Source of the DNA: Streptomyces mobaraensis NBRC 13819 = DSM 40847
Lineage (GTDB): Bacteria > Actinomycetota > Actinomycetes > Streptomycetales > Streptomycetaceae
Assembly: GCF_017916255.1 (NCBI RefSeq)
Contig: NZ_CP072827.1
Span: forward strand, 124,001-188,000
Direction: 5' to 3'
DNA: 64,000 nucleotides
This document shows positions 9,772-46,684 of this stretch, piece after piece. The number at the start of each line of letters is the position of its first letter. The first letter of the stretch is position 1. Both the position numbers and the translations under genes were made by a program. The notes beneath the pieces are model-generated. The model did not search any database, was not told the DNA's origin, and was given only the letters and a program-made list of their open reading frames with translations.

Positions 9772-12700
9772 GTGACGAATGACGGATCTGAACTCGCCGG
9801 GCAAAACGTGGCGGCGGTCCGCTTCGAGCGGTATTCCGTGATCGCGCCGGAGCGGACCGCCATCCTGCACAAAGGTGCCGCGACCGGTTACGGCGAGCTC
9901 AACCGCCGGGCCGAGTTGACAGCCACGCGCCTGGCGGACGCGGGCGCCGGCCCCTCGACCCTGGTGGCAGTGGCCCTCCCACGCGACCCCGACCTCGTCG
10001 CCACCCTGTGCGCCCTGCTCAAACTGGGTGCCGCATGCCTTCCCCTGGATCCCGGCATACCGGCCGGGCGGCTGCGCGAGATCATGGCCGACGCGTCCCC
10101 CGACGTTCTCGTCACCACCCGTGCCGTCGCTCCGGCATTCACCGGTGACGGACCCGTCCTTTTCCTGGACGACGCTCCTCCGACCTGCTCCGCCGTCCTT
10201 CCACGGCACTCAGCGGGGACCGCGTCGGAAATCGCCTATGTGCTGTACCCGACGACTCCTGACGAGAAGTCCGAAAATTCGGTCGTCTCCTATCGTGATA
10301 TGGCGCGCTACCTTGACGACCCCACTGCCGGGATTCCGGCGAGGGCGGAGATTCTCCGGCTGGTCGCGCCGCTCCTGTCCGGCGGTCGTCTGGTGCTGGA
10401 CGCCGACGAGACCCGGCCCCGGCCGGTCACCCGTGAGGCGCCGCGCGACATGGTGGAGGACGTCGTGGCGCAGGTCTGGTGCGCCGTGCTCGGCGTGGAC
10501 CGGGTGGGCGTGCGGGACCGCTTCTTCGACCTGGGCGGCAAGTCGCTGGCGGCGGTCCAGGTGGTGGCGCGCCTGCGGAAGCTGCTCGGCGTCGAGCTGC
10601 CGCTGCGGGCCCTGTTCGACGCGCCGACGGTCGAGGAGCTGGCCGCTCGGGTGCGGGCCGAACAGGCCGGCGGCCAGGGCGTCCGGGAGGAGGCGGCGCT
10701 CGAGCCGGTGGACCGGAGCGAGCCGCTGCCGCTGTCGTTCGCACAGCAACGCCTGTGGTTCCTGGACCGCTTGATGCCCGACCGCGCCTTCTACACGATG
10801 TGCGATGCGTTCCGCGTCCGGGGCGGGATCGACCTGGGTGCGCTGCGGCGGGCCCTGCGGATGCTGGTGGGACGGCACGAGACGCTGCGGACGGCGTTCG
10901 TCGAGCGGGACGGTGTGCCGTACCAGCTCGTCGGTCCGGCCGACGGGCCCGGTGCGCGGCGCGTGGCCGCTCCCACGCGGGTCGACCTGTCGCTGCTGGA
11001 GCCCGCCGAGCGGGAGGAGGCGGTGCGGAACCTGGTGGCGGCGGAGGCGCGGACCCCGTTCCGGCCGGCGGACGGCGCGCTGCTGCGCGTGGTGGTGGCC
11101 CGGCTGGCGGACGACGATCACGTGCTGGTGGTCAGCACGCACCACATCGTCTCCGACGCCTGGTCCGTGGGTGTGCTGGTGGACGAACTCGGACGGCTGT
11201 ACCGGGAGTGCGTCACCGGAGATCCCGCCGCGCTGCCCCCGCCGGCCGTCCAGTACGCCGACTTCGCGGTCTGGCAGCGGGCCTGGATGGCCGGTCCGGT
11301 GCAGGAGGAGCATCTCGCGTACTGGAAGCGGGCCTTGGACGGCGCTCCCTCGGTGCTGCGGCTGCCCATGGACCACCCGCGGCCCGCCGTGCAGTCCGAG
11401 CGGGGCGAGACGGTCGGGTTCGCGCTGCCCGACGCGCTGGTCGCCGCGCTGGAGAAGCTGGGCCGGGAGCAGGGCGCCACCCTGTTCATGACGCTGCTCG
11501 GCGCCTTCCAGGTCCTGCTGGCGCGTCACGCCGGGCAAGAGGACATCGTGGTCGGCGTGCCGGCGGCGGGGCGCACCCGGACCGAGACGGAACCTCTGGT
11601 CGGCTTCTTCGTCAACACGCTTCCCTTGCGGGCGATCTGCGCTCCGGGCCTGTCGTTCCGGGACCTGCTGGACCAGGTGCGCGAGGCCGCCCTCGGTGCC
11701 TTCGCCCATCAGGACCTGCCCTTCGAGGCGCTGGTCGAGGCGCTCGCACCCGAGCGCGACCTCGGCCACAATCCCCTCGTCCAGGTCACCTTCCAGCTCC
11801 TGGGCACACCGGCGGCGCGGCCGGACCTGATCGGGGCGGAGGTCGAGCGGTACCCGGTCCAGGAGGCCGTCTCGCAGTTCGACCTGTCCTTGGACATCAA
11901 GCGGGCCGACGACGGTTCCTACCGGGGGATCCTGAACTACTGCCCCGACCTGTTCGACCGACGCCGCATGGAGGTGCTGGTCGGCCACTATCTGACGCTG
12001 CTCGGCGCCGCCGCCGCGGACCCGGGCCGCCCGATCGGTGAGCTGCCGCTGTCCGACGGGGCCGAACGGCTGCGGCTGCTCGACGGGTTCGGGAAGCGGG
12101 ACGCGGCGTACGCCGGGCCGGGAAGCGTTCCGGAGCGGTTCGCGGAGGTGGCGCGGACGGCACCGGACGCGCGGGCGGTGACGTGTGGCGCGACAACGCT
12201 CACCTTCGCCGAGCTGAACGACCGGGTGGAGCGCCTGGCACAGGCACTGCTCGGCGCCGGGGTCACCCGCGAGACGCCGGTCGCGGTCCGCCTGCCCCGT
12301 TCCACCGACAGCGTCGTCGCCCTGCTGGCCGTCATGCGGGCGGGCGGCGTCTACGTCCCCCTGGACCCCGACTGGCCCGCGGACCGCACCGCCTACATCC
12401 TGGACGACACCGCGGCCTCCGTCGTCATCACCCGCGACCTGCCCGCACTCCCCGGTCGCCTCCACGTCGACCCGCGCCGGCCCGCGGCCGACGGCCTGGT
12501 ACCCGCGCCCCGCATCGACCCCGATCAGGCCGCGTACGTCATCTACACGTCCGGCTCGACGGGCGCGCCGAAGGGCGTCGTCGTCCGGCACCGCTCCCTG
12601 AACCACCTCACCAGCGCCCTGCAGGCCACCTTTCTCGGCCACGACCCGTATCTCGCCGGGGCCGACGGCGTACCGCCCGGGGACGCGAAGCTGCGTACGA

Positions 12701-15700
12701 CGCTCACCGCGCCCTTCACGTTCGACGCGTCCATGGAGCAACTGAGCTGGATGCTGGCCGGTCACGAGCTGTTCATCGTGCCCGAGGACGTGCGGCGCGA
12801 CCCCTCGGCGCTGGTCCGGTTCGTCCGGGAGCACCGGATCGACGTCATCGACACGACCTCCTCGCAGCTCGAACTCCTCGTATCGCACGGGCTGTTGGAC
12901 GGAGAGTGGGCGCCGTCCATGGTCATGGTGGGTGGCGAGGCGGTCTCGCCGTCGCTGTGGCGGACCTTGCGGGACCAGCGGCGCACTCGCTGTTTCAACC
13001 TGTACGGGCCTACGGAGGCGACGGTCGACGCCACCTGCCACGACCTGTCCGACCCTGCCGACGTCCCCGTCATCGGCACCCCACTCCCCCACACCCACGT
13101 CCGCGTGCTCGACGACCGACTGCGACCCGTACCCGTGGGCGTCGCCGGCGAGATCTACCTCGGCGGAACCGGCCTGGCCCGCGGCTACCTCAACCGCCCC
13201 GCCCTCACCGCCCGACGCTTCGTCGCCGACCCCTACCCCGACACCCCCGGCAGCCGCCTGTACCGCACCGGCGACCGCGCCCGCTGGCGCCCCGACGGCA
13301 CCCTCGAATACCTGGGACGCACCGACGACCAAATCAAGATCCGCGGCTTCCGCGTCGAACCCGGCGAAATCGAGGCCGTCCTCACCCACCACCCCGCCGT
13401 CAAGGAAGCCGCCGTCGTCGACGACGCGCACGCGCGGCTGGTCGCCTACGTCACGCTCGCGGAAGGCGGCGGCGCCGGCCCCACCGACGTACGCCGGTTC
13501 GCGCAGGGGCGGCTGCCCGCCCACATGGTGCCGTCGGCGGTGGTCGTCCTGGAGGCGCTGCCACTGACGTCGAACGGAAAGCTGGACCGCGCGCGCCTGC
13601 CGGCGCCCGCGGCGGGCAGACCGGAACTGGATGTCCGCTTCGTGGCGCCGCGCGACATGGTGGAGGAGGTCGTGGCGCAGGTCTGGTGCGCCGTGCTGGG
13701 CGTCGACCGGGTCGGTGTGCACGACGACTTCTTCGAGCTGGGCGGGCACTCGTTGCTGGTGGTCCAGGTGATGACCCGGATCCGGAAGCTGCTCGGCGTC
13801 GAGGTGCCGTTGCGGGAGCTGTTCGACGCCGCGACGGTCGAGGAGCTCGCCGCCCGCGTCCGTGCCGCACGGACCGAGGGCCTCGGCCGGGGGGCCGCCC
13901 CGCCCCTCGGGCCGGTGGACCGGAGCGGGCCGCTGCCGCTGTCGTTCGCGCAGCAACGCCTTTGGTACCTCGATCAGTTGGCGCCCGACAGTGTCTCCTA
14001 CAACATGTGCGACGCCTACCGGGTCCGCGGGCCCCTCGACCTGGACGCGCTGCGGCGGGCGCTGCGGACGCTGGTCGAGCGGCACGAGACGCTGCGGACG
14101 GCGTTCGTCGAGCGGGACGGGGTGCCCCACCAGGTGGTCTCGGCGCCCGACGCGCCGGCCGCGCGGCGCGCGGCGGAGGTCGTGCGGATCGAAGCGGCCG
14201 GGCGGACCGACGAGGCGGTGCGGGACCTGGTGGCCGCGGAGGCGCGCACCCCGTTCCGGCCGGCGGACGGCGCGCTGATGCGCGTGGCGGTGGCCCGGCT
14301 GGCGGACGACGATCACGTGCTGGTGGTCACCACGCACCACATCGTCTCCGACGGCTGGTCGGTCGACATCCTGGTGGACGAATTGGGGCGCCTGTATCGG
14401 GAACACGTCACGGGTGACTCCGCCGGGCTCCCTCCGCTCGACGTCCAGTACGCCGACTTCGCCGTCTGGCAGCGGTCCTGGATGACCGGCCCCGTGCGGG
14501 AGGAGCACCTCGCGTACTGGAAGCGGGCCCTGGACGGGGCACCCTCGGTCCTGCGGCTGCCTGCGGACCATCCGCGTCCCGCCGTCCAGTCCCAGCGGGG
14601 CGAGACCGTCGAGTTCCCCCTGCCCGCACCACTGGTCGCGCGGCTGGAAGCGCTCTGCCGGGAGCAGGGCGTCACCCTGTTCATGGCGCTCTTCGGCGCG
14701 TTCCAGGTGTTGCTGGCGCGCTACAGCGGTCAGGACGACGTGGTCGTGGGCGTGCCGACGGCGAACCGCACCCGGGCGGAGACCGAGCCCCTGGTCGGCT
14801 TCTTCGTCAACACCCTTCCGGTACGGGTCGCGTGCTCGCCGGAGCTGTCGTTCCGCGCCCTGCTCGACCGGGTCCGCGAGGCCGCGCTGGGCGCCTTCGC
14901 CCATCAGGACCTGCCCTTCGAGGCGCTGGTCGAGGCGCTCGCGCCCGAGCGCGACCTGGGCCACCACCCTCTCGTGCAGGTCACCTTCCAGCTCCTCGAC
15001 GCTCCCGACGAGAGGCTCGTCCTGCACGGCACGGACTGCGTCTCGCTCGGCTTCGGCGGTGTGACCAGCCGGTTCGACCTGTCCCTCGACGTCGTCTCGG
15101 GGCGGCGGGGGAAGCGGTGCGTGCTGACGTACTGTCCCGACCTGTTCGACCGGCCCCGCATGGAGGTGCTGGCCGGCCACTACCTGACCCTGCTCGGCGC
15201 GGCGGCCGACGATCCCGGTCTCCGCGTCGGCGACCTCCCGCTGAGCGACGACGTCGAACGCCTGCGCCTGCTGGGCGGGTCCCGCCCGCGGTACGTGCCC
15301 GCGCCCGGGGCGGAGACCGTCCCTGACGCCTTCGCCGCGCAGGTGCGGGCGACACCGGACGCGCCCGCGCTGGTCCACGGGGACTCGACGCTGACGTTCG
15401 CCGAGCTGGACACCCGGGTCACCGCCCTGGCCGTGCGGTTGCGGCGCTGCGGCGTGGCCGCCGAGACGCCGGTCGCGGTGTGCCTGCCGCGCTCCGCCGA
15501 CGCCGTCGTGGCCCTCCTGGCCGTCCTGCGGGCGGGCGGCGTCTATGTGCCAGTGGATCCGGAGTGGCCCTCCGGCCGCGTCGCCCACGTCCTCGACGAG
15601 ACCGCGGCCCCCGTCGTCATCACCCGCGACCTGCCCGCCGATCCCGGCCGCGTCCACCTCGACCCGCGCCAGGCCCCGGCCGGCGACCGGGATCCCCTGC

Positions 15701-18234
15701 CGCGCCTCCACCCCGACCAGGCCGCGTACACCATCTACACCTCGGGTTCCACCGGCACCCCCAAGGGCGTCACCGTCCAACACCGCTCCCTGTACCACCT
15801 CCTGGGCCACGTACGGCGCATGGCGGAGGGCAGCCCCCGGCGGAACGTCGCGCACACCACCGCTATGACCTTCGACCCGTCGCTGGAACAGTTCCTGTGG
15901 CTCGTCGCCGGACACACCCTGCACGTCGCGCCCGAGGAGGTGCGCCGCGATCCCGAGGCGCTGGTGGCCCTGGTGCGGCGCGCCGCGATCGACGTCCTCA
16001 ACGTCACCCCGTCCCACCTGACCCTGCTGATCGAGGCCGGGCTGCTGGAGGGCGACCGGGTGCCGGGTACGGTCCTGGTGGGTGGCGAGGCGGTGCCCGC
16101 GGCGCTGTGGCGGACCCTGCGCGAACGGACGGGAGCCACCCGCTTCTTCAACCTGTACGGGCCTACGGAGGCGACGGTCGACGCCACCTGCCACGACCTG
16201 TCCGACCCTGCCGACGTCCCCGTCATCGGCACCCCACTCCCCCACACCCACGTCCGCGTGCTCGACGACCGACTGCGACCCGTATCCGTGGGCGTCGCCG
16301 GCGAAATCTACCTCGGCGGAACCGGCCTGGCCCGCGGCTACCTCAACCGCCCCGCCCTCACCGCCCAACGCTTCGTCGCCGACCCCTACCCCGACACCCC
16401 CGGCAGCCGCCTGTACCGCACCGGCGACCGCGCCCGCTGGCGCCCCGACGGCACCCTCGAATACCTGGGACGCACCGACGACCAAATCAAGATCCGCGGC
16501 TTCCGCGTCGAACCCGGCGAGATCGAAGCCGTCCTCACCCACCACCCCGCCGTCAAGGAAGCCGCCGTCACCGTGGCCACCGACGACGGTGCCGCCCGGC
16601 TGGTCGCCCTCGTCGTCCCCGCCCCCCGCGCCCCGCACGGCGATTCGGCCGACGGCGCCCCGGACGCCCAGGTCGAGGAGTGGAACGCCGTCTTCGAGGC
16701 GACCCACACCGACGCCGCCGACGGCGAACTCACCTTCAACATCAAGGGCTGGAACGACAGCCTCACCGGTGCGCCGATCCCCGCCGAACACATGCGGGAA
16801 TGGGTCGACACCACCGTCGCCCGGCTCCTGGAACGGCCGGCCGAGCGCGTCCTGGAGATCGGCAGTGGCACCGGGCTGCTGATGTGGCGGCTGCTGCCGC
16901 ACGTCACCGAGTACACCGGAACCGACTTCTCGCGGCCCGCCGTGGACTGGCTCCGGGACGGGCTGCGCCGCCGCCCCGCGCACCGGGTACGGCTGCTGCA
17001 CCGCGAGGCGACCGACTTCACCGGCGTCCGCGCCGCGTCCACCGACCTCGTCGTCGTCAACTCGGTCGTCCAGTACTTCCCCGACCGCGCCTACCTCGAC
17101 ACCGTCCTGGCCCGCGCCCTCGACGCCACGGCCGACCGAGGGCGCGTCTTCGTGGGCGACGTGCGCAACCTGGCCCTCGCCCCGCAGTTCTACGCCCGTC
17201 AGGCCCTCGCCCACGCCGGTCCGGGCGCGGCGGCGCGGGACGTGGCGCGCGCCGCCGGCGAGTTCGCGGCCATGGACGGCGAGTTGCTGGTGTCCCCCGC
17301 GTACTTCGCCGCGCTCGCCGCCCGCTCGCCCCGCGTCACCGGCGTCGAGATCCTGCCCCGCCGGGGACGGCACCGCAACGAGATGAGCCTGTACCGCTAC
17401 GACGTGGTGCTGCACGTGGGCGGTGACCGCCCGGCGGCCCCGGAGGCGGAGGTGCTCACCTGGGGCGACCAGGTGCACGACCTCGCGTCGCTGTCCGCCC
17501 GCCTCGGCCGCGGGGGCCCGGACGCCCTGCTCGTGCGCGGCGTCGCCAACGACCGTCTGACGCGGGACAACGAGCTGCTCGACGCACCCGCCCGCACGAC
17601 GGCCGTCGAGCCCGAGGACCTGTGGGGGCTGGCGGACTCCACCCCCTACCGGGTGAGCGTCAGCTGGGCCGCCGCCGATCCGCGGGGCGCGATGGACGTC
17701 CTGCTGGTCCGGCGGGACGCCCACGACGACGGTCCGCTGCTCGTCCCCCACCCCGTACCGGAGCCGTCGGCACCGCTGACGAACGCGCCGACCCGGCACC
17801 CGGCCGCGCGGCAAGGGGGCTCGGCCGCGGACGGGCTGCGTTCCTGGCTCGCCGAGCGGCTTCCCGCGCACCTGCTGCCCGCGAGGATCACCGAGGTGGA
17901 CGCGCTGCCCCGCACCGGCACCGGCAAGCTCGACCGGGGCGCGCTCGGCGGACTCGTGACCGCGGGCCGTGGCGCCCGGGCGGGCGACCGCCCCGCCACC
18001 GCCCCCCGTACGGGTCTCGAACGGACCCTGGCCGACGCGTGGGCGCGGGTGCTCGGCCTCCCCGAAGTCGGCGTGCACGAGAACTTCTTCGCCCTCGGCG
18101 GCGACTCCCTCCTCGCCGTCAGGGCTGTCGCCCGGTGCCGCCGTGCCGGGGTCCGACTGACCGTCCGGCAGTTGCTGAGCGAGCAGACCGTCGCCGCGCT
18201 CGCGGCGGCCCTCGAGGAGGAGAACCATGACTGA
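9772..18234 (+). CDS. Non-ribosomal peptide synthetase: A-remnant-T-C-A-T-C-A(N-methyltransferase)-T
   Basis: 2820 aa from GTG 9772, which has GGGGGA upstream; an in-frame ATG at 9706 has no such site. Residues 10-220 are an adenylation remnant: A1-A2 text is present, A3 is ruined (YVLYPTTPDEKSENSV), and after about the A4 region the sequence jumps straight to a carrier, so A5-A10 are absent. T1 (GGKSL), C1 (HHIVSDA), A1, T2 (GGHSL), C2 (HHIVSDG), A2 and T3 (GGDSL) all keep key residues. A1 (about 777-1277) has code DAEDMGLVDK and A2 has DPENLGLVDK; Glu at position 239 suggests basic side chains such as Arg derivatives. A2 carries an inserted SAM-dependent methyltransferase (about 2300-2545, VLEIGSGTG), implying an N-methylated residue. 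There is no thioesterase and no terminal C, so the chain must pass to another protein. Confidence 0.95.
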   Translation: MTNDGSELAGQNVAAVRFERYSVIAPERTAILHKGAATGYGELNRRAELTATRLADAGAGPSTLVAVALPRDPDLVATLCALLKLGAACLPLDPGIPAGRLREIMADASPDVLVTTRAVAPAFTGDGPVLFLDDAPPTCSAVLPRHSAGTASEIAYVLYPTTPDEKSENSVVSYRDMARYLDDPTAGIPARAEILRLVAPLLSGGRLVLDADETRPRPVTREAPRDMVEDVVAQVWCAVLGVDRVGVRDRFFDLGGKSLAAVQVVARLRKLLGVELPLRALFDAPTVEELAARVRAEQAGGQGVREEAALEPVDRSEPLPLSFAQQRLWFLDRLMPDRAFYTMCDAFRVRGGIDLGALRRALRMLVGRHETLRTAFVERDGVPYQLVGPADGPGARRVAAPTRVDLSLLEPAEREEAVRNLVAAEARTPFRPADGALLRVVVARLADDDHVLVVSTHHIVSDAWSVGVLVDELGRLYRECVTGDPAALPPPAVQYADFAVWQRAWMAGPVQEEHLAYWKRALDGAPSVLRLPMDHPRPAVQSERGETVGFALPDALVAALEKLGREQGATLFMTLLGAFQVLLARHAGQEDIVVGVPAAGRTRTETEPLVGFFVNTLPLRAICAPGLSFRDLLDQVREAALGAFAHQDLPFEALVEALAPERDLGHNPLVQVTFQLLGTPAARPDLIGAEVERYPVQEAVSQFDLSLDIKRADDGSYRGILNYCPDLFDRRRMEVLVGHYLTLLGAAAADPGRPIGELPLSDGAERLRLLDGFGKRDAAYAGPGSVPERFAEVARTAPDARAVTCGATTLTFAELNDRVERLAQALLGAGVTRETPVAVRLPRSTDSVVALLAVMRAGGVYVPLDPDWPADRTAYILDDTAASVVITRDLPALPGRLHVDPRRPAADGLVPAPRIDPDQAAYVIYTSGSTGAPKGVVVRHRSLNHLTSALQATFLGHDPYLAGADGVPPGDAKLRTTLTAPFTFDASMEQLSWMLAGHELFIVPEDVRRDPSALVRFVREHRIDVIDTTSSQLELLVSHGLLDGEWAPSMVMVGGEAVSPSLWRTLRDQRRTRCFNLYGPTEATVDATCHDLSDPADVPVIGTPLPHTHVRVLDDRLRPVPVGVAGEIYLGGTGLARGYLNRPALTARRFVADPYPDTPGSRLYRTGDRARWRPDGTLEYLGRTDDQIKIRGFRVEPGEIEAVLTHHPAVKEAAVVDDAHARLVAYVTLAEGGGAGPTDVRRFAQGRLPAHMVPSAVVVLEALPLTSNGKLDRARLPAPAAGRPELDVRFVAPRDMVEEVVAQVWCAVLGVDRVGVHDDFFELGGHSLLVVQVMTRIRKLLGVEVPLRELFDAATVEELAARVRAARTEGLGRGAAPPLGPVDRSGPLPLSFAQQRLWYLDQLAPDSVSYNMCDAYRVRGPLDLDALRRALRTLVERHETLRTAFVERDGVPHQVVSAPDAPAARRAAEVVRIEAAGRTDEAVRDLVAAEARTPFRPADGALMRVAVARLADDDHVLVVTTHHIVSDGWSVDILVDELGRLYREHVTGDSAGLPPLDVQYADFAVWQRSWMTGPVREEHLAYWKRALDGAPSVLRLPADHPRPAVQSQRGETVEFPLPAPLVARLEALCREQGVTLFMALFGAFQVLLARYSGQDDVVVGVPTANRTRAETEPLVGFFVNTLPVRVACSPELSFRALLDRVREAALGAFAHQDLPFEALVEALAPERDLGHHPLVQVTFQLLDAPDERLVLHGTDCVSLGFGGVTSRFDLSLDVVSGRRGKRCVLTYCPDLFDRPRMEVLAGHYLTLLGAAADDPGLRVGDLPLSDDVERLRLLGGSRPRYVPAPGAETVPDAFAAQVRATPDAPALVHGDSTLTFAELDTRVTALAVRLRRCGVAAETPVAVCLPRSADAVVALLAVLRAGGVYVPVDPEWPSGRVAHVLDETAAPVVITRDLPADPGRVHLDPRQAPAGDRDPLPRLHPDQAAYTIYTSGSTGTPKGVTVQHRSLYHLLGHVRRMAEGSPRRNVAHTTAMTFDPSLEQFLWLVAGHTLHVAPEEVRRDPEALVALVRRAAIDVLNVTPSHLTLLIEAGLLEGDRVPGTVLVGGEAVPAALWRTLRERTGATRFFNLYGPTEATVDATCHDLSDPADVPVIGTPLPHTHVRVLDDRLRPVSVGVAGEIYLGGTGLARGYLNRPALTAQRFVADPYPDTPGSRLYRTGDRARWRPDGTLEYLGRTDDQIKIRGFRVEPGEIEAVLTHHPAVKEAAVTVATDDGAARLVALVVPAPRAPHGDSADGAPDAQVEEWNAVFEATHTDAADGELTFNIKGWNDSLTGAPIPAEHMREWVDTTVARLLERPAERVLEIGSGTGLLMWRLLPHVTEYTGTDFSRPAVDWLRDGLRRRPAHRVRLLHREATDFTGVRAASTDLVVVNSVVQYFPDRAYLDTVLARALDATADRGRVFVGDVRNLALAPQFYARQALAHAGPGAAARDVARAAGEFAAMDGELLVSPAYFAALAARSPRVTGVEILPRRGRHRNEMSLYRYDVVLHVGGDRPAAPEAEVLTWGDQVHDLASLSARLGRGGPDALLVRGVANDRLTRDNELLDAPARTTAVEPEDLWGLADSTPYRVSVSWAAADPRGAMDVLLVRRDAHDDGPLLVPHPVPEPSAPLTNAPTRHPAARQGGSAADGLRSWLAERLPAHLLPARITEVDALPRTGTGKLDRGALGGLVTAGRGARAGDRPATAPRTGLERTLADAWARVLGLPEVGVHENFFALGGDSLLAVRAVARCRRAGVRLTVRQLLSEQTVAALAAALEEENHD
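12994..13416 (+). repeat. Long direct repeat within the NRPS, copy 1 (A1 core A5-A8)
   Basis: 423 bp matching 16147-16569 with five mismatches seen by eye. It begins at the FNLYGPTE motif and ends a little after A8, in a distinctive C-rich codon style. It covers specificity positions 322, 330 and 331, so both A domains share those residues. Confidence 0.9.
16147..16569 (+). repeat. Long direct repeat within the NRPS, copy 2 (A2 core A5-A8)
   Basis: Partner of 12994-13416, offset 3153 bp (exactly 1051 codons). The flanking parts of A1 and A2 are clearly more divergent than this block, which points to recent gene conversion or copying of one segment over the other. Confidence 0.9.
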
Positions 18235-19240
18235 CCTGCCGTTGCGTACCGTCGCACTCACCGGTGAGGAGAGCGCGGAGGTCGACGACCTGCTGCGCAC
18301 GCTGGCCGACGTGCCGGTCGACTCCACCGTGGGACTGCTGCACCGCACCCGGCTCGCCGCACAGGAACTGCCGCTGCGCATCCGCGCCGAGCTCACGGGG
18401 ATGCGGCTCTACGACAGCCCGCGCGCCCTCGTCGTCACGGGCTTCGGCGTCGACGACGAACGGATCGGACCGACCCCCGCGGCCCGTCCCGCCCCGGATC
18501 CCGAGCGGACCCGCGACCTGGAGCTGCTGCTTTTGCTGCACGCGGCCCTGCTCGGCGAGGCGTTCGGCTGGGCGACCCAGCAGAACGGCCGGCTCGTCCA
18601 CGACGTGCTGCCCGTTCCCGGTGAGGAGACCGCGCAGATGGGTTCCAGCAGCGAGACCGAGCTGCTGTGGCACACCGAGGACGCGTTCCACCCGCTGCGC
18701 TGCGACTACGTGGGCCTGCTGTGCCTGCGCAACCACCAGCGCGCCGCGACCACCGTGGGCTGGCCCGACCTGTCCCGGCTCACCACCGAGGACCGTGCCG
18801 TGCTCCTCGAACCCCGCTATCTGATCCGCCCGGACACCTCGCACACGCCCGCGCAGAACGCGACGGGCACGCGGTCCGCCGAGCGTTTCGCGGCGATCGC
18901 CGAGATGGACGACGCCCCGGGGCGCGTCGCCGTCCTGTTCGGCGACCCCGAGGACCCGTACCTGCGGATCGACCCGGCCTACATGAGCCCGGCCCCCGGG
19001 GACGCGGCCGCCCGGCGGGCGTACGACACCGTCACCGCGCTCATCGAGGACGAGCTGCGGCACGTCGTCCTGGACGCCGGTTCACTGCTGCTGGTCGACA
19101 ACTACCAGGCGGTGCACGGCCGCAAGCCGTTCGCCGCCGCCTACGACGGCCGCGACCGCTGGCTCAAACGCGTCAACATCACCCGCGACCTGCGCCGTTC
19201 CCGGTCCGCGCGGCGGTCGGCCACCTCGCTGCTGGTGTGA
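18227..19240 (+). CDS. Fe(II)/2-oxoglutarate oxygenase, VioC-like arginine beta-hydroxylase family
   Basis: 337 aa from ATG 18227, overlapping the NRPS stop by 8 bp with GGAGGAG upstream. It matches viomycin VioC and its relatives along the whole chain: GWATQQNGRLVHDVLPV, WHTEDAFHPLRCDYVGL, FGDPEDPYLRIDP and DNYQAVHGRKPF, ending DRWLKRVNITRDLRRSR. The iron triad would be His and Glu of WHTE plus the His of AVHGRKPF. In VioC acidic residues near the YLRID segment bind the Arg guanidinium, and this segment is conserved. VioC hydroxylates free L-Arg at C3. I infer the same or a close reaction here, feeding one of the basic-residue A domains. No VioD-like cyclase (capreomycidine synthase) is visible in the window. 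Confidence 0.87.
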   Translation: MTDLPLRTVALTGEESAEVDDLLRTLADVPVDSTVGLLHRTRLAAQELPLRIRAELTGMRLYDSPRALVVTGFGVDDERIGPTPAARPAPDPERTRDLELLLLLHAALLGEAFGWATQQNGRLVHDVLPVPGEETAQMGSSSETELLWHTEDAFHPLRCDYVGLLCLRNHQRAATTVGWPDLSRLTTEDRAVLLEPRYLIRPDTSHTPAQNATGTRSAERFAAIAEMDDAPGRVAVLFGDPEDPYLRIDPAYMSPAPGDAAARRAYDTVTALIEDELRHVVLDAGSLLLVDNYQAVHGRKPFAAAYDGRDRWLKRVNITRDLRRSRSARRSATSLLV

Positions 19241-19250
19241 GGGAGGCACC

Positions 19251-20003
19251 ATGGATTTCCCCCTCACCCGCGTCAACCCCTGGTTCAGCGGCGGCTGCGA
19301 CGGCCGCCCCCGGGTGCGGCTGTGCGCGCTGCCGTACGCGGGCGGCACCGCCGCCGTCTTCAAGGACTGGCCCGCCGCGCTGCCCCCCGGAGTGGAGCTG
19401 CTCACCGCGCACCTGCCGGGACGCGGCGACCGGTTCACCGAACCGCCCCCGGCCACCCTGGAGGAGACCGCCGAGCGGCTGTGCGAGGCGCTGCCGCCGA
19501 GTGACCTGCCCACGGTCGTCCTCGGCCACAGCATGGGCGCCCTGCTGGGGTACGAAGTGGCGGCGCGGCTCGCGGCGCGGGGCCGCGCCCCCAACCTGCT
19601 GATCGCCGCGGCCTGCCGTCCCCCGCACGTTCCGCCGGACGCCTCCGGTCCGGTGACCGAGGCCGAGCTGGCGGCCACCCTGCGGGCCGAACGCCCATGG
19701 GACACGGCCCTGAGGGACGAGGAACTGATGGAAGCGGTGCTGCCCGCCCTGGTCGCCGACATCACGGCCGGCGACCGCTACCACCGCCCGCGGCCCCGCC
19801 CGCTCGACCTCCCGCTGAAGGTCTACATCGGCGCCGACGACGACGGCACCGACTGGCGCACCACCCTGGGCTGGCGCGCGTGCACCGCCCGGGACTGCGA
19901 GGTCGTCGTCCTGCCCGGCGGCCACTACTTCCTGGAGACCGACCGCGCGGCCGTCCTCACCCGCGTCGCCACGGACCTCGCCGAAGCCGAGGCAGGGGCA
20001 TGA
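19251..20003 (+). CDS. Type II (editing) thioesterase
   Basis: 250 aa from ATG 19251 with GGGAGG upstream. It is an alpha/beta hydrolase with the type II thioesterase features: LPYAGGTAAVF near residue 30, nucleophile elbow GHSMGA (Ser), an Asp in IGADDDG and a catalytic His in PGGHYFLE. Such enzymes clear stalled or wrong acyl groups from NRPS and PKS carriers. It lies 10 bp after the hydroxylase gene and its stop overlaps the next start (ATGA), so it belongs to the NRPS operon. Confidence 0.95.
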   Translation: MDFPLTRVNPWFSGGCDGRPRVRLCALPYAGGTAAVFKDWPAALPPGVELLTAHLPGRGDRFTEPPPATLEETAERLCEALPPSDLPTVVLGHSMGALLGYEVAARLAARGRAPNLLIAAACRPPHVPPDASGPVTEAELAATLRAERPWDTALRDEELMEAVLPALVADITAGDRYHRPRPRPLDLPLKVYIGADDDGTDWRTTLGWRACTARDCEVVVLPGGHYFLETDRAAVLTRVATDLAEAEAGA

Positions 20004-21283
20004 CCGCGCGCGTCGACGCCACACCCACCTACCTGGCGGTGCTGGCGGTGCGCGAGGCCCGCGCCCCGCTCCTCGGCAGCTGCCTGGCCCGCATGTCCTT
20101 CGCGGTGCTGCCGCTCGCCCTGCTGCTGTCGGTCCGGGACGCGACGGGGTCGTTCGCCGTCGCCGGACTGACCTCCGGCGCGCTGTCGGCCACGCTCACG
20201 CTGTTCGCGCCCGCCCGCGCCCGGCTGATCGACCGCCGGGGCTCACGGTCCGGACTGGTCCGGCTGACCGTCCCGTACCTGCTGGGGCTCGCCGTGCTGA
20301 TCACATTGGCCGAGGCGGAAGCGCCCACCGCGGCGCTGCTCGTCGCCGCCGCGGTCGCGGGCGTGTTCGCGCCGCCGCTCGGTCCGACCATGCGCGTGCT
20401 GTGGGCGAGGATCCTGCACGGCCGTCAGCCCCTGCTGCACACCGCCTACGCCCTCGACTCCGTCACCGAGGAGGTGGTCTTCACCGTGGGGCCGCTGCTG
20501 GCGGGCGGCCTGATCGCGGTCGCGGCACCGCTCGCGTCGATGATCACGGTCATGGTGCTGATCGCGGCCGGTACCGCCTGCTTCGTGCTGTCCGCCGCGA
20601 CCGCCGCCGCCCCCGCGTCGGGCGAAGCCGACGAGGACCGGCCGCACGGCCGGCCCATGGCTCTGCCCGGGATGCGCACGATCGTGCTGTCCTTCGGCGG
20701 CGTCGGCCTGGTCGTCGGGGTGCTCCAGGTCGTCCTGCCGTTCATCGCCGACCACGCGGGCTCGCCCGGCGCGGGCGGCATCCTGCTGTCCATGCTGTCG
20801 GCGGGCAGCGCGGTCGGCGGCCTCGCCTACGGGCGGATCGCCTGGCGCTCGACGCCCGTGCGGCGGTTCGTGGTGCTCGTCACCGGGTTCACGCTGGCGG
20901 TGCTGCCGCTGTGCCTGACCGCGAGCCCGGTGCCGGCCGGGGCCTTCGCCCTCCTCGTGGGACTCTGCCTCGCCCCGCTGTTCACCACCGCCTACCTGCT
21001 GGTCAACGACCTGGTGACGGCGTCGGGGACCGCACCCACCGAGGCCAACACCTGGGTCTCCACGGCCAATAACGGAGGGTTCGCCGCGGGCAGCGCCGCC
21101 GCCGGTGTGCTGCTCGACTCCCGGGGCCCCACCGTCACCGTCACCGCCGCGTTCGCGGTCGCCGCCGCGACCGCCGTCATGACCGTTCTGCGCCGCCGGA
21201 CCCTGCTCCTCGGCGCCGGACACCCCGAACCGGCCGCCGCCACACCCGCCGACCGCACCGCACCCGCCGAAGCCGAGGAGTGA
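20000..21283 (+). CDS. Major facilitator superfamily transporter, probable product exporter
   Basis: 427 aa from ATG 20000, overlapping the thioesterase stop by ATGA. About twelve hydrophobic segments are visible, with a typical first loop (LLGSCLARMSFAVLPLALLL) and a basic cytoplasmic loop (DRRGSRSG) between segments 2 and 3. Its place inside the NRPS operon suggests export of, or self-resistance to, the product. The substrate cannot be read from the sequence. Confidence 0.9.
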   Translation: MTARVDATPTYLAVLAVREARAPLLGSCLARMSFAVLPLALLLSVRDATGSFAVAGLTSGALSATLTLFAPARARLIDRRGSRSGLVRLTVPYLLGLAVLITLAEAEAPTAALLVAAAVAGVFAPPLGPTMRVLWARILHGRQPLLHTAYALDSVTEEVVFTVGPLLAGGLIAVAAPLASMITVMVLIAAGTACFVLSAATAAAPASGEADEDRPHGRPMALPGMRTIVLSFGGVGLVVGVLQVVLPFIADHAGSPGAGGILLSMLSAGSAVGGLAYGRIAWRSTPVRRFVVLVTGFTLAVLPLCLTASPVPAGAFALLVGLCLAPLFTTAYLLVNDLVTASGTAPTEANTWVSTANNGGFAAGSAAAGVLLDSRGPTVTVTAAFAVAAATAVMTVLRRRTLLLGAGHPEPAAATPADRTAPAEAEE

Positions 21284-21290
21284 ACCGATC

Positions 21291-22109
21291 GTGTCCAAGA
21301 ACGCGGCGCACTGGTCGCGCATCCGCACAGGGGACGCCCCCGGCGTCGTACTCGCCGTGGACTTCTACGGAACGGGCCGCCAGGAAGCCACCTTCCGCCA
21401 CCTGTGCGACCTGCTCACGGATCCGGTCGAGGTCTGGCACGCGGTCCCGCCCGCCCCGGACGGCGACTGGTCCACGGCCACCGGCGCCGGTCACCTGCGC
21501 TGGTGGACCGAGGGGCTCGACACGGTCCTCGCGGGACGGCCGGTGCGGGCCCTCGTCGGCTACTGCGCGGGCGGCGTCTTCGCCTCGGCCCTCGCCGACG
21601 CCCTCGTCGAACGGGAGGGCCACCGGCCGCGGGTCGTGCTGTTCAACCCCGGCGCGCCCGGCGTCGCCACGCTCACCCGCGACTTCCGCGGTCTGATCGC
21701 CGGCATGGACCTCCTCACGGACGGGGAACGCGCCGCTCTGCTGGCCGAGACGACCGCGATCCGGCGGGCACACGCCCCCGACGCGCTGGTACCGGTCGCC
21801 GAACGCTACGCCGCCCTGTACCGCGAGGGCTGCGACCTCCTGTGCGAGCGGCTCGGCGTGGACGCCTCCTTCGGCGCCGAACTGGCCGCCGTCCTCCACT
21901 CCTACCTGGCCTACCTCACGGCGGCGCTCGACGTGCCCCCCACCCCGCTGTGGCGCGGCGCCGTCTCGCTCACCTCCCGCGAGCACCAGGGCACCGACTT
22001 CACCGACGTCGAGCACGGCTTCGACGTCGCCCGTGCCGAACTGCTGAGCTCCCCCCAGGTCGTCGCGGCGCTGACCGCGCTCCTCCGCGAACACGAGGCG
22101 AGCCGATGA
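21291..22109 (+). CDS. Alpha/beta-hydrolase with Cys nucleophile, candidate aminoacyl carrier-to-carrier transferase (SyrC/CmaE-like)
   Basis: 272 aa from GTG 21291. It has a thioesterase-like fold, but the nucleophile elbow reads GYCAGG, so Cys replaces Ser. A His in DVEHGFDVARAEL near the C-terminus could complete the active site. Known Cys-type members SyrC (syringomycin) and CmaE (coronamic acid) are not hydrolases: they carry an aminoacyl group from one carrier domain to another. Here the gene is followed with ATGA overlap by a free A-T protein, then a carrier-type oxygenase, and the same operon holds an NRPS whose first T lacks a working A. That arrangement is what a shuttle needs. The alternative is an ordinary Cys thioesterase or a condensing TE. 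Overall sequence similarity to SyrC was not measured. Confidence 0.68.
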   Translation: MSKNAAHWSRIRTGDAPGVVLAVDFYGTGRQEATFRHLCDLLTDPVEVWHAVPPAPDGDWSTATGAGHLRWWTEGLDTVLAGRPVRALVGYCAGGVFASALADALVEREGHRPRVVLFNPGAPGVATLTRDFRGLIAGMDLLTDGERAALLAETTAIRRAHAPDALVPVAERYAALYREGCDLLCERLGVDASFGAELAAVLHSYLAYLTAALDVPPTPLWRGAVSLTSREHQGTDFTDVEHGFDVARAELLSSPQVVAALTALLREHEASR

Positions 22110-23842
22110 CCCTCACCCTGCGGGACGCCTTCCTCGACCAGGCCGCCCGGACCCCCGACGCCCACGCCCTCGTACACGGCGACACTGTATGGACGTACCG
22201 CGAACTGGAACTGCGGGCCGGCCGCATGGCCCGGACGCTGGCCGCACGCGGCGCGGGCCCCGGCACGCTGGTGGCGGTACGCCTGCCGCGCGGTCCCGAA
22301 CCGGTCGCCGCGCTCCTCGCGGTCGTGCTGACGGGAGCGGGCTACGTGCCGCTCGCCGACGACGACCCGCCGGACCGGTGCCGGCACATCCTCGACGACT
22401 GCGCCGCCGCGCTGCTGCTGGCCGAGCACCCCTCGCGGGACGGACGCACCCTCACCCCGGACGAGGCGCTGGCACCCGCCCGCCCGTTCGACGCGGCCCC
22501 GGTGCGGGCCGGCGACCCGGCGTACGTGATCTACACCTCCGGCTCCAGTGGCCGTCCGAAGGGCGTGCTGGTCGAACAGGGCGCGCTCGGCGCCTACCTG
22601 GCACAGGCCCGCGCGCGCTACGACGGGCTGTCCGGACGGACGGTGCTGCACTCCTCGCTGTCCTTCGACATGGCCGTGACCAGTCTGTGGGGCCCGCTCG
22701 TCAGCGGCGGCGCGATCCACGTGCTCGACCTGAAGGCGATCGCCTCCGGCACCCAGCCGCCGCCCGCCGCCTCGGCACGTCCGTCCTTCCTCAAGGTCAC
22801 TCCGTCCCACCTGCCGCTGCTGGGCCTGCTGCCGGACTCCTGCCTGCCCACCGGGCAACTCGTGATCGGCGGCGAGGCGCTGACCGGCTCCGCGCTCGGA
22901 CCCTGGCGCGCCGCGCACCCCGACGTCACGGTCGTCAACGAGTACGGGCCCACCGAGGCGACCGTCGGCTGCTGCGCGTACACCGTCCGCCCCGGTGACG
23001 CCGTGGACCCGGGTGCCGTCCCCATCGGACGGCCGTTCGCGGGCACCCGCCTGTACGTGCTCGACGCGGACGGCGAGCCGGTCGCCGTGGGCGGTGTGGG
23101 TGAACTGCACATCGCGGGCGACCAGTTGGCGCGCGGATACCTGGGGCGCCCGCGGCTGACCGAGGAACGCTTCGTCCCGGACCCGTTCGCCGCCGACGGC
23201 TCCCGGATGTACCGCACCGGCGACCTGGTGCGCGAACGCCCGGACGGCGACCTGGAGTACCTCGGGCGCGCGGACGGGCAGGTGAAGGTCTCCGGGTACC
23301 GGATCGAGCCCGGCGAGATCGAGGCCGTGCTCCGCGGCCACGCGGGGGTGAGGGACTGCGCGGTCGTCGCCGTCGGCGAGGCGGACGCCCGCCGGCTCGT
23401 CGCCTACGTGGTACCGGACCCGGACTCCCCGCCCGGCACCGCCGCGCCGGCGCGGCACGCGGCCGAGGCGCTGCCGCCGTACATGGTGCCGGCGACGTTC
23501 GTCACCGTGCCCGAACTGCCGCTCACCCCCAACGGGAAGCTCGACCGGGACGCGCTGCCCGGCCCCCCTGCCGGCGACGCCGGGCCGGGCGACCGCACCC
23601 CGGCCGAGACCCTGCTGTGCGAGCTGCTGGCACGGGCCCTGGGCATCCCGGAGATCGACGCCGACGCCGACTTCCTGACGTCCGGCGGCACCAGCATCAC
23701 CGCGCTGAAGCTGGTCGCCGGCGCCCGCCGGGTCGGCATCCGCCTCGAACTCACCACCGTCCTGCGCGAACGCACGGTGCGCCGCATCCTGGCGGCCCAG
23801 CCCGACGCCGCCTCGCCCCTCGTCGAAGGAGTGCCCGAGTGA
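22106..23842 (+). CDS. Free-standing NRPS adenylation-thiolation didomain, Asn-type code
   Basis: 578 aa from ATG 22106 (ATGA overlap upstream). The A domain is complete: A3 YTSGSSGRPKG, A5 NEYGPTE, A7 YRTGDL, A8 GRADGQVKVSGYRIE and A10 PNGKLDR. It is followed by a carrier domain with FLTSGGTSITALK, Ser present. By hand alignment to GrsA the specificity code is DMTKVGEVGK, close to the Asn code DLTKLGEVGK and to the code of the left-arm NRPS. It has no C domain, so it can only charge its own carrier. Its neighbours are a SyrP-type oxygenase (GTGA overlap) and a Cys-type transferase, as with the SyrB1 and CmaA carriers used for in-trans modification. Confidence 0.92.
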   Translation: MTLTLRDAFLDQAARTPDAHALVHGDTVWTYRELELRAGRMARTLAARGAGPGTLVAVRLPRGPEPVAALLAVVLTGAGYVPLADDDPPDRCRHILDDCAAALLLAEHPSRDGRTLTPDEALAPARPFDAAPVRAGDPAYVIYTSGSSGRPKGVLVEQGALGAYLAQARARYDGLSGRTVLHSSLSFDMAVTSLWGPLVSGGAIHVLDLKAIASGTQPPPAASARPSFLKVTPSHLPLLGLLPDSCLPTGQLVIGGEALTGSALGPWRAAHPDVTVVNEYGPTEATVGCCAYTVRPGDAVDPGAVPIGRPFAGTRLYVLDADGEPVAVGGVGELHIAGDQLARGYLGRPRLTEERFVPDPFAADGSRMYRTGDLVRERPDGDLEYLGRADGQVKVSGYRIEPGEIEAVLRGHAGVRDCAVVAVGEADARRLVAYVVPDPDSPPGTAAPARHAAEALPPYMVPATFVTVPELPLTPNGKLDRDALPGPPAGDAGPGDRTPAETLLCELLARALGIPEIDADADFLTSGGTSITALKLVAGARRVGIRLELTTVLRERTVRRILAAQPDAASPLVEGVPE

Positions 23843-24825
23843 CCGGTTCCGTAACGCTCACCCCCCTCGGCGGGATCATCCCCAGGCCCCGCGGCGAGGG
23901 GCTCACCACCGGCGCCGAGTACGACCTGGGGCCGCTCGGCGACGCGGGCCCCGACTGGGTGCGGGCCCACGGCCCGCGACTGCGCGAGCGCCTCGCCACC
24001 GACGGGCTGATCCTGCTGCACGGTCTGCCCACCGACGGAGACGGCGTCGACGGCTTCCACGACGTCGTCGGCTCCGTCGGCGGCGACCCGCTGCCCTACA
24101 CCGAGCGCTCCACCCCGCGCAGCGTGGTCAAGGGCAACATCTACACCTCGACCGAGTACCCGGCCGACCAGCCCATCCCGATGCACAACGAGAACTCCTA
24201 CGCCGCCCATTGGCCGTCCACGCTCTACTTCTTCTGCCACACCGCGCCGGACACCGGCGGGGCCACGCCGATCGCCGACGGCCGCGCCGTCCTCGACCTC
24301 ATCCCGGCCGAGGTCAGGCGGCGGTTCTCCCAAGGGGTCGTCTACACCCGTACGTTCCGCGCCGACATGGGACTGAGCTGGCAGGAAGCGTTCCAGACCG
24401 AGGACCGCGGCGACGTCGAACGCCATTGCCGCGCCCACGGCCAGGAGTTCTCCTGGGACGGCGACGTCCTGCGCACCCGCCACCACCGCCCGGCGACCGC
24501 CGTCGACCCCGGCACCGGAGCCGAGGTGTGGTTCAACCAGGCGCACCTGTTCCACCCGTCCAGCCTGGATCCCGACCTGCGCCAGGTGCTCCTGGAGACG
24601 TACGGCGAGAACGGCCTGCCCCGCGACGCCCTGTTCGCCGACGGCACCCCGATCCCCGACGCCGACCTGGCAACGGTCCGCGCGGCCTACACCCGCGCCG
24701 CGCTCGCGCTGCCGTGGCGAGAGGGCGACATCATGCTGGTCGACAACCTGAGGATGGCCCACGGCCGCGAGCCCTTCACCGGCGAGCGCCGCGTACTCGT
24801 CGCGATGACCTCGGCGGACTCATGA
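23839..24825 (+). CDS. TauD/SyrP-type Fe(II)/2-oxoglutarate oxygenase, probably acting on a carrier-bound amino acid
   Basis: 328 aa from GTG 23839, overlapping the A-T stop by GTGA. TauD/TfdA-family features are GGDPLPYTERSTPRS early on, the iron motif HNENSYAAHWP (His and Glu), GGATPIADGRAV, and the distal His of DNLRMAHGREPF. An acidic residue in HxE means a hydroxylase rather than a halogenase, which has Ala or Gly there. SyrP, the best-studied relative in NRPS clusters, hydroxylates carrier-bound Asp at C3. Coupled to an Asn-type A-T protein, the likely product is 3-hydroxy-Asn on that carrier. The sequence does not settle whether it acts before or after transfer. Confidence 0.83.
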   Translation: MTGSVTLTPLGGIIPRPRGEGLTTGAEYDLGPLGDAGPDWVRAHGPRLRERLATDGLILLHGLPTDGDGVDGFHDVVGSVGGDPLPYTERSTPRSVVKGNIYTSTEYPADQPIPMHNENSYAAHWPSTLYFFCHTAPDTGGATPIADGRAVLDLIPAEVRRRFSQGVVYTRTFRADMGLSWQEAFQTEDRGDVERHCRAHGQEFSWDGDVLRTRHHRPATAVDPGTGAEVWFNQAHLFHPSSLDPDLRQVLLETYGENGLPRDALFADGTPIPDADLATVRAAYTRAALALPWREGDIMLVDNLRMAHGREPFTGERRVLVAMTSADS

Positions 24826-25008
24826 GCCGTGCCGACGCATCGGCACGCCGTCCTCCCGTCGGGGCGCTACCATCGCCGCTGTCTCGGCCATCGCCCCACC
24901 CGGGCGGAGGCAACCGGCCGTGCACATCCCCGCCGTGGTCGCCACGGCACGCGCGATCACCCGCGCCATGACCGCCCAGCCCGTTGTCACATCTGCGGAG
25001 GCGCCGCG
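24826..25008. other. Gap before the PKS gene
   Basis: 183 bp between co-directional genes, wider than any other gap in this operon. It may hold a separate PKS promoter. GGAGG lies about 8 nt before ATG 25009. I see no gene here. Confidence 0.4.
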
Positions 25009-28000
25009 ATGACAGAGGTCCGAGGTGAACTGATCCGGGCGCTGCCGGGTGTGCTGGAGGCGCGTGCGGCGCGGGCGGGGCACACGACCGCCTTCCTCGA
25101 CGCACGACGGTGTGTCACGTACCGGGAGTTGGAGGCGCGGACCCGCCGGCTGGCGGGTCACCTGGTGCGGTTGGGGGTGCGCAGGGGCGACCGGGTGGCG
25201 CTCGTCATGGGCAACCGGGTGGAGATGGCGGAGGGTTCCCTCGCGGTGCTGCGGGCGGGAGCGGTAGGGGTGCCGCTCGATTCCGGGGCCACGGACGCGG
25301 AGCTCGCGTACTTCCTCGACGACTGTGGAGCGGTGGCGGTGGTCACCGAGGAGACGCTGCTGCCGCGGGTCTCGCGATCGGCGGGCGTACGGATCCTGGT
25401 GGGGGGTTCGGACGCCGTCCCGGAGGGAGCGGCTGCCGGCACCCACTCCTTCGAGCGGCTCGCGGCGTCGGATCCGGGGTGCGCGCCACGGGACGACCTC
25501 GGCCTCGACGAGCCGGCCTGGATCCTCTACACGTCGGGGACCACGGGCCGGAGCAAGGGCGTGGTCTGCGGCCAGCGCGCCGCGCTGTGGTCCGTGGCGG
25601 CGGCGTACGTGCCGTCGTGGGGTCTGGGGCCGCAGGACCGGCTGTTGTGGCCGCTGCCCATGTTCCACGCCTACGCGCACTCGCTGTGCCTGCTCGGGGT
25701 GGTGGCCGTGGGCGCGAGCGCGTACCTCCTCGACCGGGGCGCGAGCGTCGTCCGGGCGCTTGAGGAACAGCGGTGCAGCGTCGTGGCCGGTGTACCCGCC
25801 ACCTACCGCCTGCTCACGAGCGCCTTCCGCGACGCCCCCCGGCCACCGGCCGGCCTGCGACTGTGCGTCACCGGGGGCGCGCCGTGCCCGCCGGGGCTGC
25901 GGGCGGACGTCGAGGAGCTGCTGGGCGTCCCGCTGCTCGACGGTTACGGCAGTACCGAGACCTGCGGCAAGATCACGGTTGAGCGGCTCGGCGGCTCCGG
26001 GGAGGGCGGCTTGCCGGTGCCCGGCGTCGAGGTGCGGCTGACCGACCCCACCGGGGACGGCGATGTCGCCGGCGGGGAGGAAGGGGAGATCCGGGTCCGC
26101 GGCCCGAACCTGATGCTCGGGTACCACGACCGCCCCGACGAGACGGCGCGCGCGGTGCGGGACGGCTGGTACCGCACCGGAGACCTCGGCCGTCGCGAAC
26201 GGCACGGCGGTCTGCGCGTCACCGGCCGCGTCAAGGAACTGATCATCCGCGGTGGCGAGAACGTCAATCCGGTCGAGGTCGAGCACGTGCTCCTCGGCTG
26301 CCCCGGCGTCGTGGACGCGGCCGTCGTCGGCAGGCCGCACGACACGCTGGGCGAGGTGCCGGTCGCCTTCGTCGTCGCCGATCCGCGGCGCGGCGTCGAC
26401 CCGGACCGGGTACGCGCCCTGTGCCGGGAGCGGCTGTCGGACTTCAAGGTGCCCGACGAGGTGTACGAGACCGACGCCGTGCCCCGCACTCCGTCCGGCA
26501 AGACCGACCGCCCCGCCCTGGCCCGGCAGTTGGCGGAGGGCCCGGGCCCGGCGCGCGAGGCGACGGCGTCCGCCCTCCGCCGGCGCCTGTCGGCGCTGTC
26601 CCCGTCCGGGCGGTACGACGCCGTGCTGCGTCTCGTCCTGGCCACGGTGGCACACGCGAGCGGCGCGCCGGAACGGGAGCCGGAGCCGGGCCGGTCCTTC
26701 ACCTCCTTCGGGATCACGTCCCTCGGAGGCGTACTGCTGCGCGACCGGCTGGGCACGGCCACCGGCCTGGAGCTGCCCGCGACCTTGGTGTTCGACCACC
26801 CGACGCCCGCCGCGGTGGCGGCGTTCCTGGAGACCGCGCTGCTCGGCGGCCCGGTCCCGGACGGCCAGGGGACGCGGGCGTCCTCGGCGGAGCCCGTCGC
26901 CATCGTCGCGATGGCCTGCCGGTATCCGGGCGGCGTGACCTCGCCCGAGGACTTGTGGCGACTGGTCGCCGACGGGGTCGACGCGACCTCGGACCTCCCG
27001 GCCGACCGTGGCTGGGACCCCTCCGCTCTCCACGACCGGGACCCCGACCGGCTCGGCACCTCCGTCACCCGCCGCGGCGGATTCCTGCGCGGGGCGGCCG
27101 ACTTCGACGCGGCCTTCTTCGGGATGTCCCCACGGGAGGCGCTGGCCACCGATCCGCAGCAGCGGCTGCTGCTGGAGACCACCTGGGAGGTGTGCGAGCG
27201 GGCCGGCATCGACCCGACGTCCCTGCGCGGCACCGACACGGGCGTGTTCGTCGGCGTGATGCACGACGACTACGCCGGCCGCTTCCTGCACCGCGGCCCG
27301 CACGAGCTGGAGGCGCACCTCGCGCTGGGCTCGGCGGGCAGCGTGGCCTCGGGTCGTGTCGCCTACGTCATGGACCTGCGCGGGCCGGCCGTGACCGTGG
27401 ACACGGCCTGTTCGTCGTCGCTGGTGGCGATGGACTCGGCGGCACGGGCGCTGCGCTCGGGCGAGTGCTCGCTGGCCGTGGCGGGAGGCGTGACCGTGAT
27501 GGCGACTCCGGCGTCGTTCGTCGCGTTCAGCAGGTTGCGCGGCCTGGCGCCGGACGGCCGGTGCAAACCGTTCTCGGCCGCGGCCGACGGCACCGCCTGG
27601 GCCGAGGGGGTGGGCGTGGTCCTGCTGGAGCGGCTGTCCGACGCCCGGCGCAACGGGCATCCGGTGCTGGCCGTGCTCCGCGGGTCGGCGGTCGCGTCCG
27701 ACGGCGCGTCCAACGGCCTGACCGCGCCGAGCGGCCCGGCCCAGCAGGAGGTGATCCGCCGGGCCCTGGCCGCCGCCGGGCTGTCCCCGGCGGACGTCGA
27801 CACGGTCGAGACGCACGGCACGGGTACCGCGCTCGGCGACCCGGTGGAGGCGCGGGCGTTGCAGGCCGCGTACGGGAAGGAGCGGCCCGGCGGCCGGCCG
27901 CTGTGGCTCGGGGCGCTCAAGTCCAACATCGGGCACACGCAGGCCGCGGCCGGTGTGGGAGGGGTCATCAAGACCGTCATGGCCATGCGCCACGGGCGAC

Positions 28001-44029: not shown

Positions 44030-44062
44030 GATGTCTCCTGTGGAGGGCGGGAGTCGGGGGCG

Positions 44063-45064: not shown

Positions 45065-45106
45065 GGTCGTGTGCTCCTGACAGGTGGGATGCGGCGGGCG
45101 GTGGGG

Positions 45107-46330: not shown

Positions 46331-46684
46331 GAGGGTCTCCTGCACGGAGGGGGAGCGGCGCGCCGGGCGGTGCCGGGCGCTCGTCTCCGAAGGACCGGAA
46401 GCCTCGGAAGGGGAGTCCGGTTCGAGCGGTTCCACCGTGTCACGGGGACCTCGCCCGGCCGCACCGCCGCTGGTCCCCAACGCAGGCCCCCTGGTCCCGG
46501 CTTCACCAGGGACCACGCCCGTCACGACCGGGACCATCGGCCCCGGGACCGTCCCGGCCGGGGACGGACTCCGGCGGGCCCGGGACGGATGGTCCATGGC
46601 CCGTGCCCGCCTCGCGGGCGGACGGTGGAGGCGCCGGAGGACGACGGGCCCGGCCCGGCCGGGCCCGGAGAGGACTCGATCGCC
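46331..46684. promoter_or_regulatory. Divergent promoter region of arcA and the first nitroreductase
   Basis: 354 bp holding a cluster of GGGAC/GTCCC elements: a good match at 46530-46543, with partial ones near 46444 and 46546. No gene is seen. Confidence 0.55.
46530..46543. promoter_or_regulatory. DevR/OsdR-like box between arcA and nitroreductase
   Basis: GGGACCATCGGCCC, one base different from the commonest form in this island (A for T at position 7). It sits about 140 bp from the nitroreductase start and 200 bp from the arcA start. Confidence 0.5.

Follow-up and report, generated by a model that had tools for sequence, protein, structure and literature searches.

The window analysed here is a stretch of 64,000 nucleotides of Streptomyces mobaraensis NBRC 13819 = DSM 40847 (positions 124001-188000 of a 7.57 Mb contig), and our subject is a plus-strand operon in it that may load asparagine in trans onto a nonribosomal peptide synthetase (NRPS) whose first adenylation (A) domain has collapsed. 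From position 9772 the operon runs in the order NRPS, VioC-like hydroxylase, type II thioesterase (TEII), MFS transporter, GYCAGG protein, A-T protein and TauD oxygenase. The NRPS (9772-18234, +), read from Pfam matches and homologues, has the layout A1 remnant-T1-C-A2-T2-C-A3-T3 (T, carrier domain; C, condensation domain), with a methyltransferase inserted in A3; the Pfam scan found no thioesterase (TE) domain in it. Its start codon is GTG, and the start at 9772 is plausible because the homologue P0055 begins at the same place. Next come two genes absent from the original prediction, which was made from the DNA alone: a VioC/GntD-like arginine-type beta-hydroxylase (18227-19240, +), which is a second 2-oxoglutarate (2OG) oxygenase, and a RifR-like TEII (19251-20003, +; Pfam, GHSMG motif), whose best match among solved structures is RifR. 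The MFS transporter (20000-21283, +) precedes the three accessory genes of interest, which are joined by overlaps as predicted (ATGA at 22106, GTGA at 23839). These encode the GYCAGG protein (21291-22109, +; motif at residues 90-95), a free A-T didomain (22106-23842, +; Pfam AMP-binding, AMP-binding_C and PP-binding) and a TauD/SyrP-like Fe(II)/2OG oxygenase (23839-24825, +), an HxE enzyme of the TauD family whose HNE motif and distal His align with those of 1y0z. The code of the A-T protein, read by motif, is DMTKVGEVGK, close to DLTKLGEVGK, which, together with the code positions, we take to be the asparagine reference.

The NRPS does open with an A-domain remnant followed by an intact T1 (10423-10659, +; Pfam, GGKSL at 10534), the proposed acceptor. 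The remnant occupies NRPS residues about 34-235 (9805-10410, +; some 200 residues) and scores 98.4 bits against a hidden Markov model built from 22 A domains, compared with 6.1 for the top score among 1000 shuffles. Similarity covers motifs A1-A2, which are still readable, and runs into the A3 region, where the P-loop has decayed (YVIYTSGSTGAPKG in the A2 domain versus YVLYPTTPDEKSEN in the remnant); beyond it, about A5-A10 are missing. Layout and boundaries are the same in four homologues (P0055, P0058, P0059 and P0066, with GGKSL or GGRSL in T1), in a search that scored the best 120 of 2744, and the remnant recurs at 73% identity in two further genomes (G076 and G399), in which the NRPS is split over contigs. 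The reading frame is uninterrupted in the window as well as in G076 and G399, and with the shared boundaries in the four homologues this led us to set aside a sequencing error or recent frameshift. Across three pairwise comparisons, identity is 59-80% for the remnant, 84-88% for the C domain and 86-93% for T1. The corresponding dN/dS ratios are 0.34-0.54 for the remnant (up to 0.57 when T1 is included), 0.42-0.57 for T1, 0.30-0.50 for A2 and 0.24-0.29 for the C domain, all read with the caution that the G+C of these sequences leaves room for few synonymous changes; since T1 and A2 fall in a similar range, the ratio of the remnant is not special. The collapse of A1 is old, kept in frame and, because four homologues and two further genomes share it, fixed, with protein change faster than in the neighbouring domains.

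By sequence and by fold, helical insertion included, the GYCAGG protein belongs to the NcmC/TrdC family of Dieckmann cyclases. It matches no Pfam family at E 0.001, Thioesterase among them, and so does not fall with TEII shuttles of the LgnA/WS5 type. The cyclase triad of Cys, Asp and His is broken: C92 is kept, but N119 stands in place of the Asp and R248 in place of the His, both of which NcmC itself retains, and the residue beside the Asp has changed from Glu to Gly. In a first tree of 92 rows (P0006 and some places omitted), 26 rows with this Asn-Arg pair form a branch, here called C-N-R as opposed to C-D-H, with SH-aLRT 82. A second tree of 106 rows added the remaining places except P0006 and repeated loci; Cys92 is kept in 27/27 C-N-R rows of the fuller tree. 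The site was read in matches that have a locus, and one candidate scan scored the 7997 sequences sharing most words. The original prediction had placed the shuttle with SyrC and CmaE. This placement found no support: the clear relatives are the Dieckmann cyclases, and as far as tested (the SyrC, CmaE and CysB sequences lay outside the comparison) the shuttle appears to come from a different family. Three further NcmC-like proteins (L071, L072 and L073) have a C-D-T site. Each adjoins an A-T protein whose code is DVRAVGVVDK, and matches to NRPS, KS-AT and TE lie nearby; they represent another possible departure from cyclase chemistry.

We surveyed the surroundings of these proteins in samples of 392 genus, 394 family and 394 class genomes, scanning 58 places (56 loci, two of which are one place, and three more), most with 1.5 kb flanks. 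The C-N-R form is rare: in 4 of 394 family genomes it stands apart by score and has the site, and among the places checked in the genus sample the site occurs in G000 and G076 of 392. An A-T protein lies directly downstream in all six C-N-R places, and in the same 6/6 the partners of the GYCAGG protein are a free loader and an acceptor whose T domain lacks a working A domain. These acceptors are of three kinds. The window, G076 and G399 share the A remnant-T1 arrangement. G572 has a 94-residue T protein just upstream of the cassette, with a similar one in G565; both genomes are probably Kitasatospora, to judge by P0031 and P0032, their neighbours in the tree. The acceptor in Actinomadura chibensis is a terminal C-T-TE module, in which no A domain was matched; its A scrap is weak, at 6.2 bits, where the top score of 1000 shuffles was 4.0. 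The oxygenase had no match in the 20.8 kb examined at the Actinomadura cassette, and therefore hydroxylation is not needed for the pairing of shuttle and A-T protein. Upstream of the G572 cassette (L069, 14953-18931), the free T protein occurs together with a stand-alone C domain and a protein that matches the lantibiotic-dehydratase N terminus (15780-18572), an unusual combination that might hint at tRNA-dependent chemistry involving a carrier protein.

Among the 52 other places, an A-T protein of Asn code is present in eight (codes of L024, L047, L049 and L052 were read at 9/10 positions) and one of code DVRAVGVVDK in three, and in many of the remainder a C domain adjoins. At two C-D-H loci (L020 and L032) an A domain also lies downstream, best matched by A2. 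At a third (L077) the neighbouring C-A-T protein keeps pieces of its A domain, with the P-loop region gone and no Pfam AMP-binding match; this can be compared with BpdC, where point changes have silenced the A domain (PMC10956176; this and the other papers are cited from excerpts). Broken, half-lost, scrap-only and absent A domains thus occur in the acceptor modules of relatives, which fits the earlier idea that the remnant is a fossil of a converted loading module.

We infer the following route, the carrier roles, transfer and hydroxylation steps and product alike. The A-T protein would adenylate asparagine and load its own T domain, where the TauD/SyrP-like oxygenase probably beta-hydroxylates it. 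Cys92 of the GYCAGG protein would accept the aminoacyl group as a thioester and hand it to the phosphopantetheine thiol of T1, thereby delivering what is probably 3-hydroxyasparagine to a module whose own A domain is collapsed; T1 would then start a three-residue chain, followed by the A2 and A3 residues. The ancestor of the shuttle would have been a TrdC/NcmC-type cyclase that had an A-T protein as its partner already. Losing the Asp and His (D to N and H to R, plus a Glu-to-Gly change next to the Asp) should disfavor water attack and Dieckmann closure, and so may have removed hydrolysis and cyclization while thiol-thioester exchange at Cys92 stays possible. In short, the GYCAGG protein would be a Cys-based Asn shuttle built on the scaffold of a Dieckmann cyclase, acting in the manner of SyrC, CmaE and CysB without evident kinship to them; we give this a probability of roughly 0.6.

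The closest worked logic is that of CysH, CysJ and CysB: a free module takes up Asn, CysJ hydroxylates it in place, and CysB carries it to a module whose A domain is inactive (PMC7966384). The operon shares its proposed logic with this system and with SyrC and CmaE: a loader that stands free, a 2OG enzyme hydroxylating Asn on its carrier, a transferase, and an acceptor lacking a working A domain. By analogy the window holds the same roles, although the shuttle role appears best filled by a protein that groups with NcmC. The fold family in turn links it to NcmC, TrdC and BpdE, with which it shares the alpha/beta-hydrolase fold, the helical insertion, the active Cys and a Tyr at 208. BpdE likewise has a partner A-T protein for Asn, BpdD, and its acceptor BpdC contains an A domain that is silent (PMC10956176). 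The window protein differs from these enzymes in its Asn and Arg for the catalytic Asp and His, and no set of tetramate polyketide synthase (PKS) and NRPS genes is kept along with it: a PKS follows in the window, but it has no match adjoining the NRPS or cassette in the examined stretches of G076 and G399, and no KS match occurs in those of the other C-N-R places. It is possible, though doubtful, that the NcmC-like proteins that have A-T didomains as partners, among them BpdE, were ancestrally bifunctional, the same Cys shuttling Asn and later cyclizing the chain; the C-N-R clade would then have kept the shuttle half after tetramate chemistry was lost.

Several observations weigh against a shuttle of this kind. 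The eight Asn A-T proteins noted above adjoin C-D-H relatives, several with PKS genes near, and therefore adjacency alone is no proof of a shuttle. Support for the C-N-R branch is moderate, in a quick tree with long branches, and the Asn-Arg site could mark some other reaction or a binding-only protein. The lack of a TE domain in the window NRPS leaves room for a role in release. Finally, direct transfer by the A-T protein has been suggested for BpdD and BpdC, where deletion of a TEII had no effect and a BLAST search with SyrC gave no obvious homologue in the genome carrying bpdE (PMC10956176), and spontaneous transthiolation has been reported for pacidamycin (PMC8748450).

These last reports suit an explanation without any shuttle, in which the A-T protein charges T1 itself or by direct T-to-T transthiolation and the GYCAGG protein does something else. 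We consider it unlikely: it sits poorly with a C-N-R protein beside the A-T gene in every one of the six places, across three acceptor kinds, and with the invariance of Cys92. A second explanation casts the TEII as the shuttle. LgnA, itself a TEII, takes Thr off an A-T protein and brings it to a module lacking an A domain (PMC8748450), a role that has also been proposed for WS5/WS20. These systems share with ours aminoacyl transfer from a free A-T protein to an A-less module, and differ in that here the TEII is a gene separate from the GYCAGG protein. The window, L003 and L066 all have the TEII gene in this operon, but no TEII match was found in the examined stretches of three C-N-R places (G565, G572 and Actinomadura), which makes it improbable as the common shuttle; its RifR likeness also speaks against this role. 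In-trans loading of T1 by the Asn A-T protein, as originally proposed, fits the comparative data, although that proposal had not weighed the resident TEII as a competing shuttle. Still a Dieckmann-type off-loader, releasing or cyclizing the chain of a TE-less NRPS, is a most doubtful role for the GYCAGG protein despite its NcmC family. The Asp and His are replaced, and BpdE reportedly depends on C89, D116, H245 and Y204 (PMC10956176); the window PKS, as noted, has no such match in the examined stretches of G076 and G399; and a TE domain is present in the NRPS of Actinomadura, so that release is unlikely as the common role.

The product can be outlined only as a guess. The hand-read codes of A2 (12139-13605, +; DAEDMGLVDK) and of A3 with its inserted methyltransferase (15394-17145, +; DPENLGLVDK) have E239 with D278 or N278, and the VioC-like protein is closest to arginine-type hydroxylases. 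A basic amino acid for A2 is itself a guess, and the published arginine/capreomycidine code DLAESGAVDK (PMC8399532) differs from both codes, which speaks against a firm basic assignment. Our guess from the sequence is a tripeptide of (hydroxy)asparagine and two basic residues, one perhaps N-methylated; a literature search found no matching known product.

Directly after the oxygenase lies the PKS (24829-32982; AL-ACP-KS-AT-DH-KR-ACP-TE), which we set aside as a core part on the evidence of G076 and G399 given above. The minus-strand NRPS to the left, including a C-T protein (3248-5314, -) considered as a possible acceptor, was likewise set aside: it has no own-kind match in the examined stretches of these two genomes, and the NRPS-to-NRPS matches it has there are general. 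Between its C and T domains, this C-T protein contains the C-terminal piece of an A domain (16.0 bits, where the top score of 1000 shuffles was 2.4), a second collapsed A domain. The minus-strand multi-protein NRPS runs on to the left of the window (L002, contig 106001-125000), its far end being an AMP-binding protein with a DIP2-like AMP domain. Elsewhere in the window (43076-46759, -), genes for an amino acid kinase, ornithine carbamoyltransferase and arginine deiminase stand in a row.

The earlier interpretation was therefore right in outline, and the observation behind it is confirmed. Carrier-to-carrier aminoacyl shuttles are known in the open-licence PMC literature from two groups, SyrC/CmaE/CysB and TEII proteins such as LgnA. 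The graded decay of acceptor A domains, from silent or broken through half-lost and scrap to absent, forms a natural series from a normal module to a trans-loaded one that is useful for engineering. If the ancestral proteins were bifunctional, the route by which BpdC receives Asn during bripiodionen synthesis would be explained. If our interpretation of the GYCAGG protein is true, an origin among Dieckmann cyclases, with its C-N-R signature, would make in-trans Asn loading recognizable from sequence and would suggest a candidate enzyme for the transfer step of bripiodionen-type clusters.
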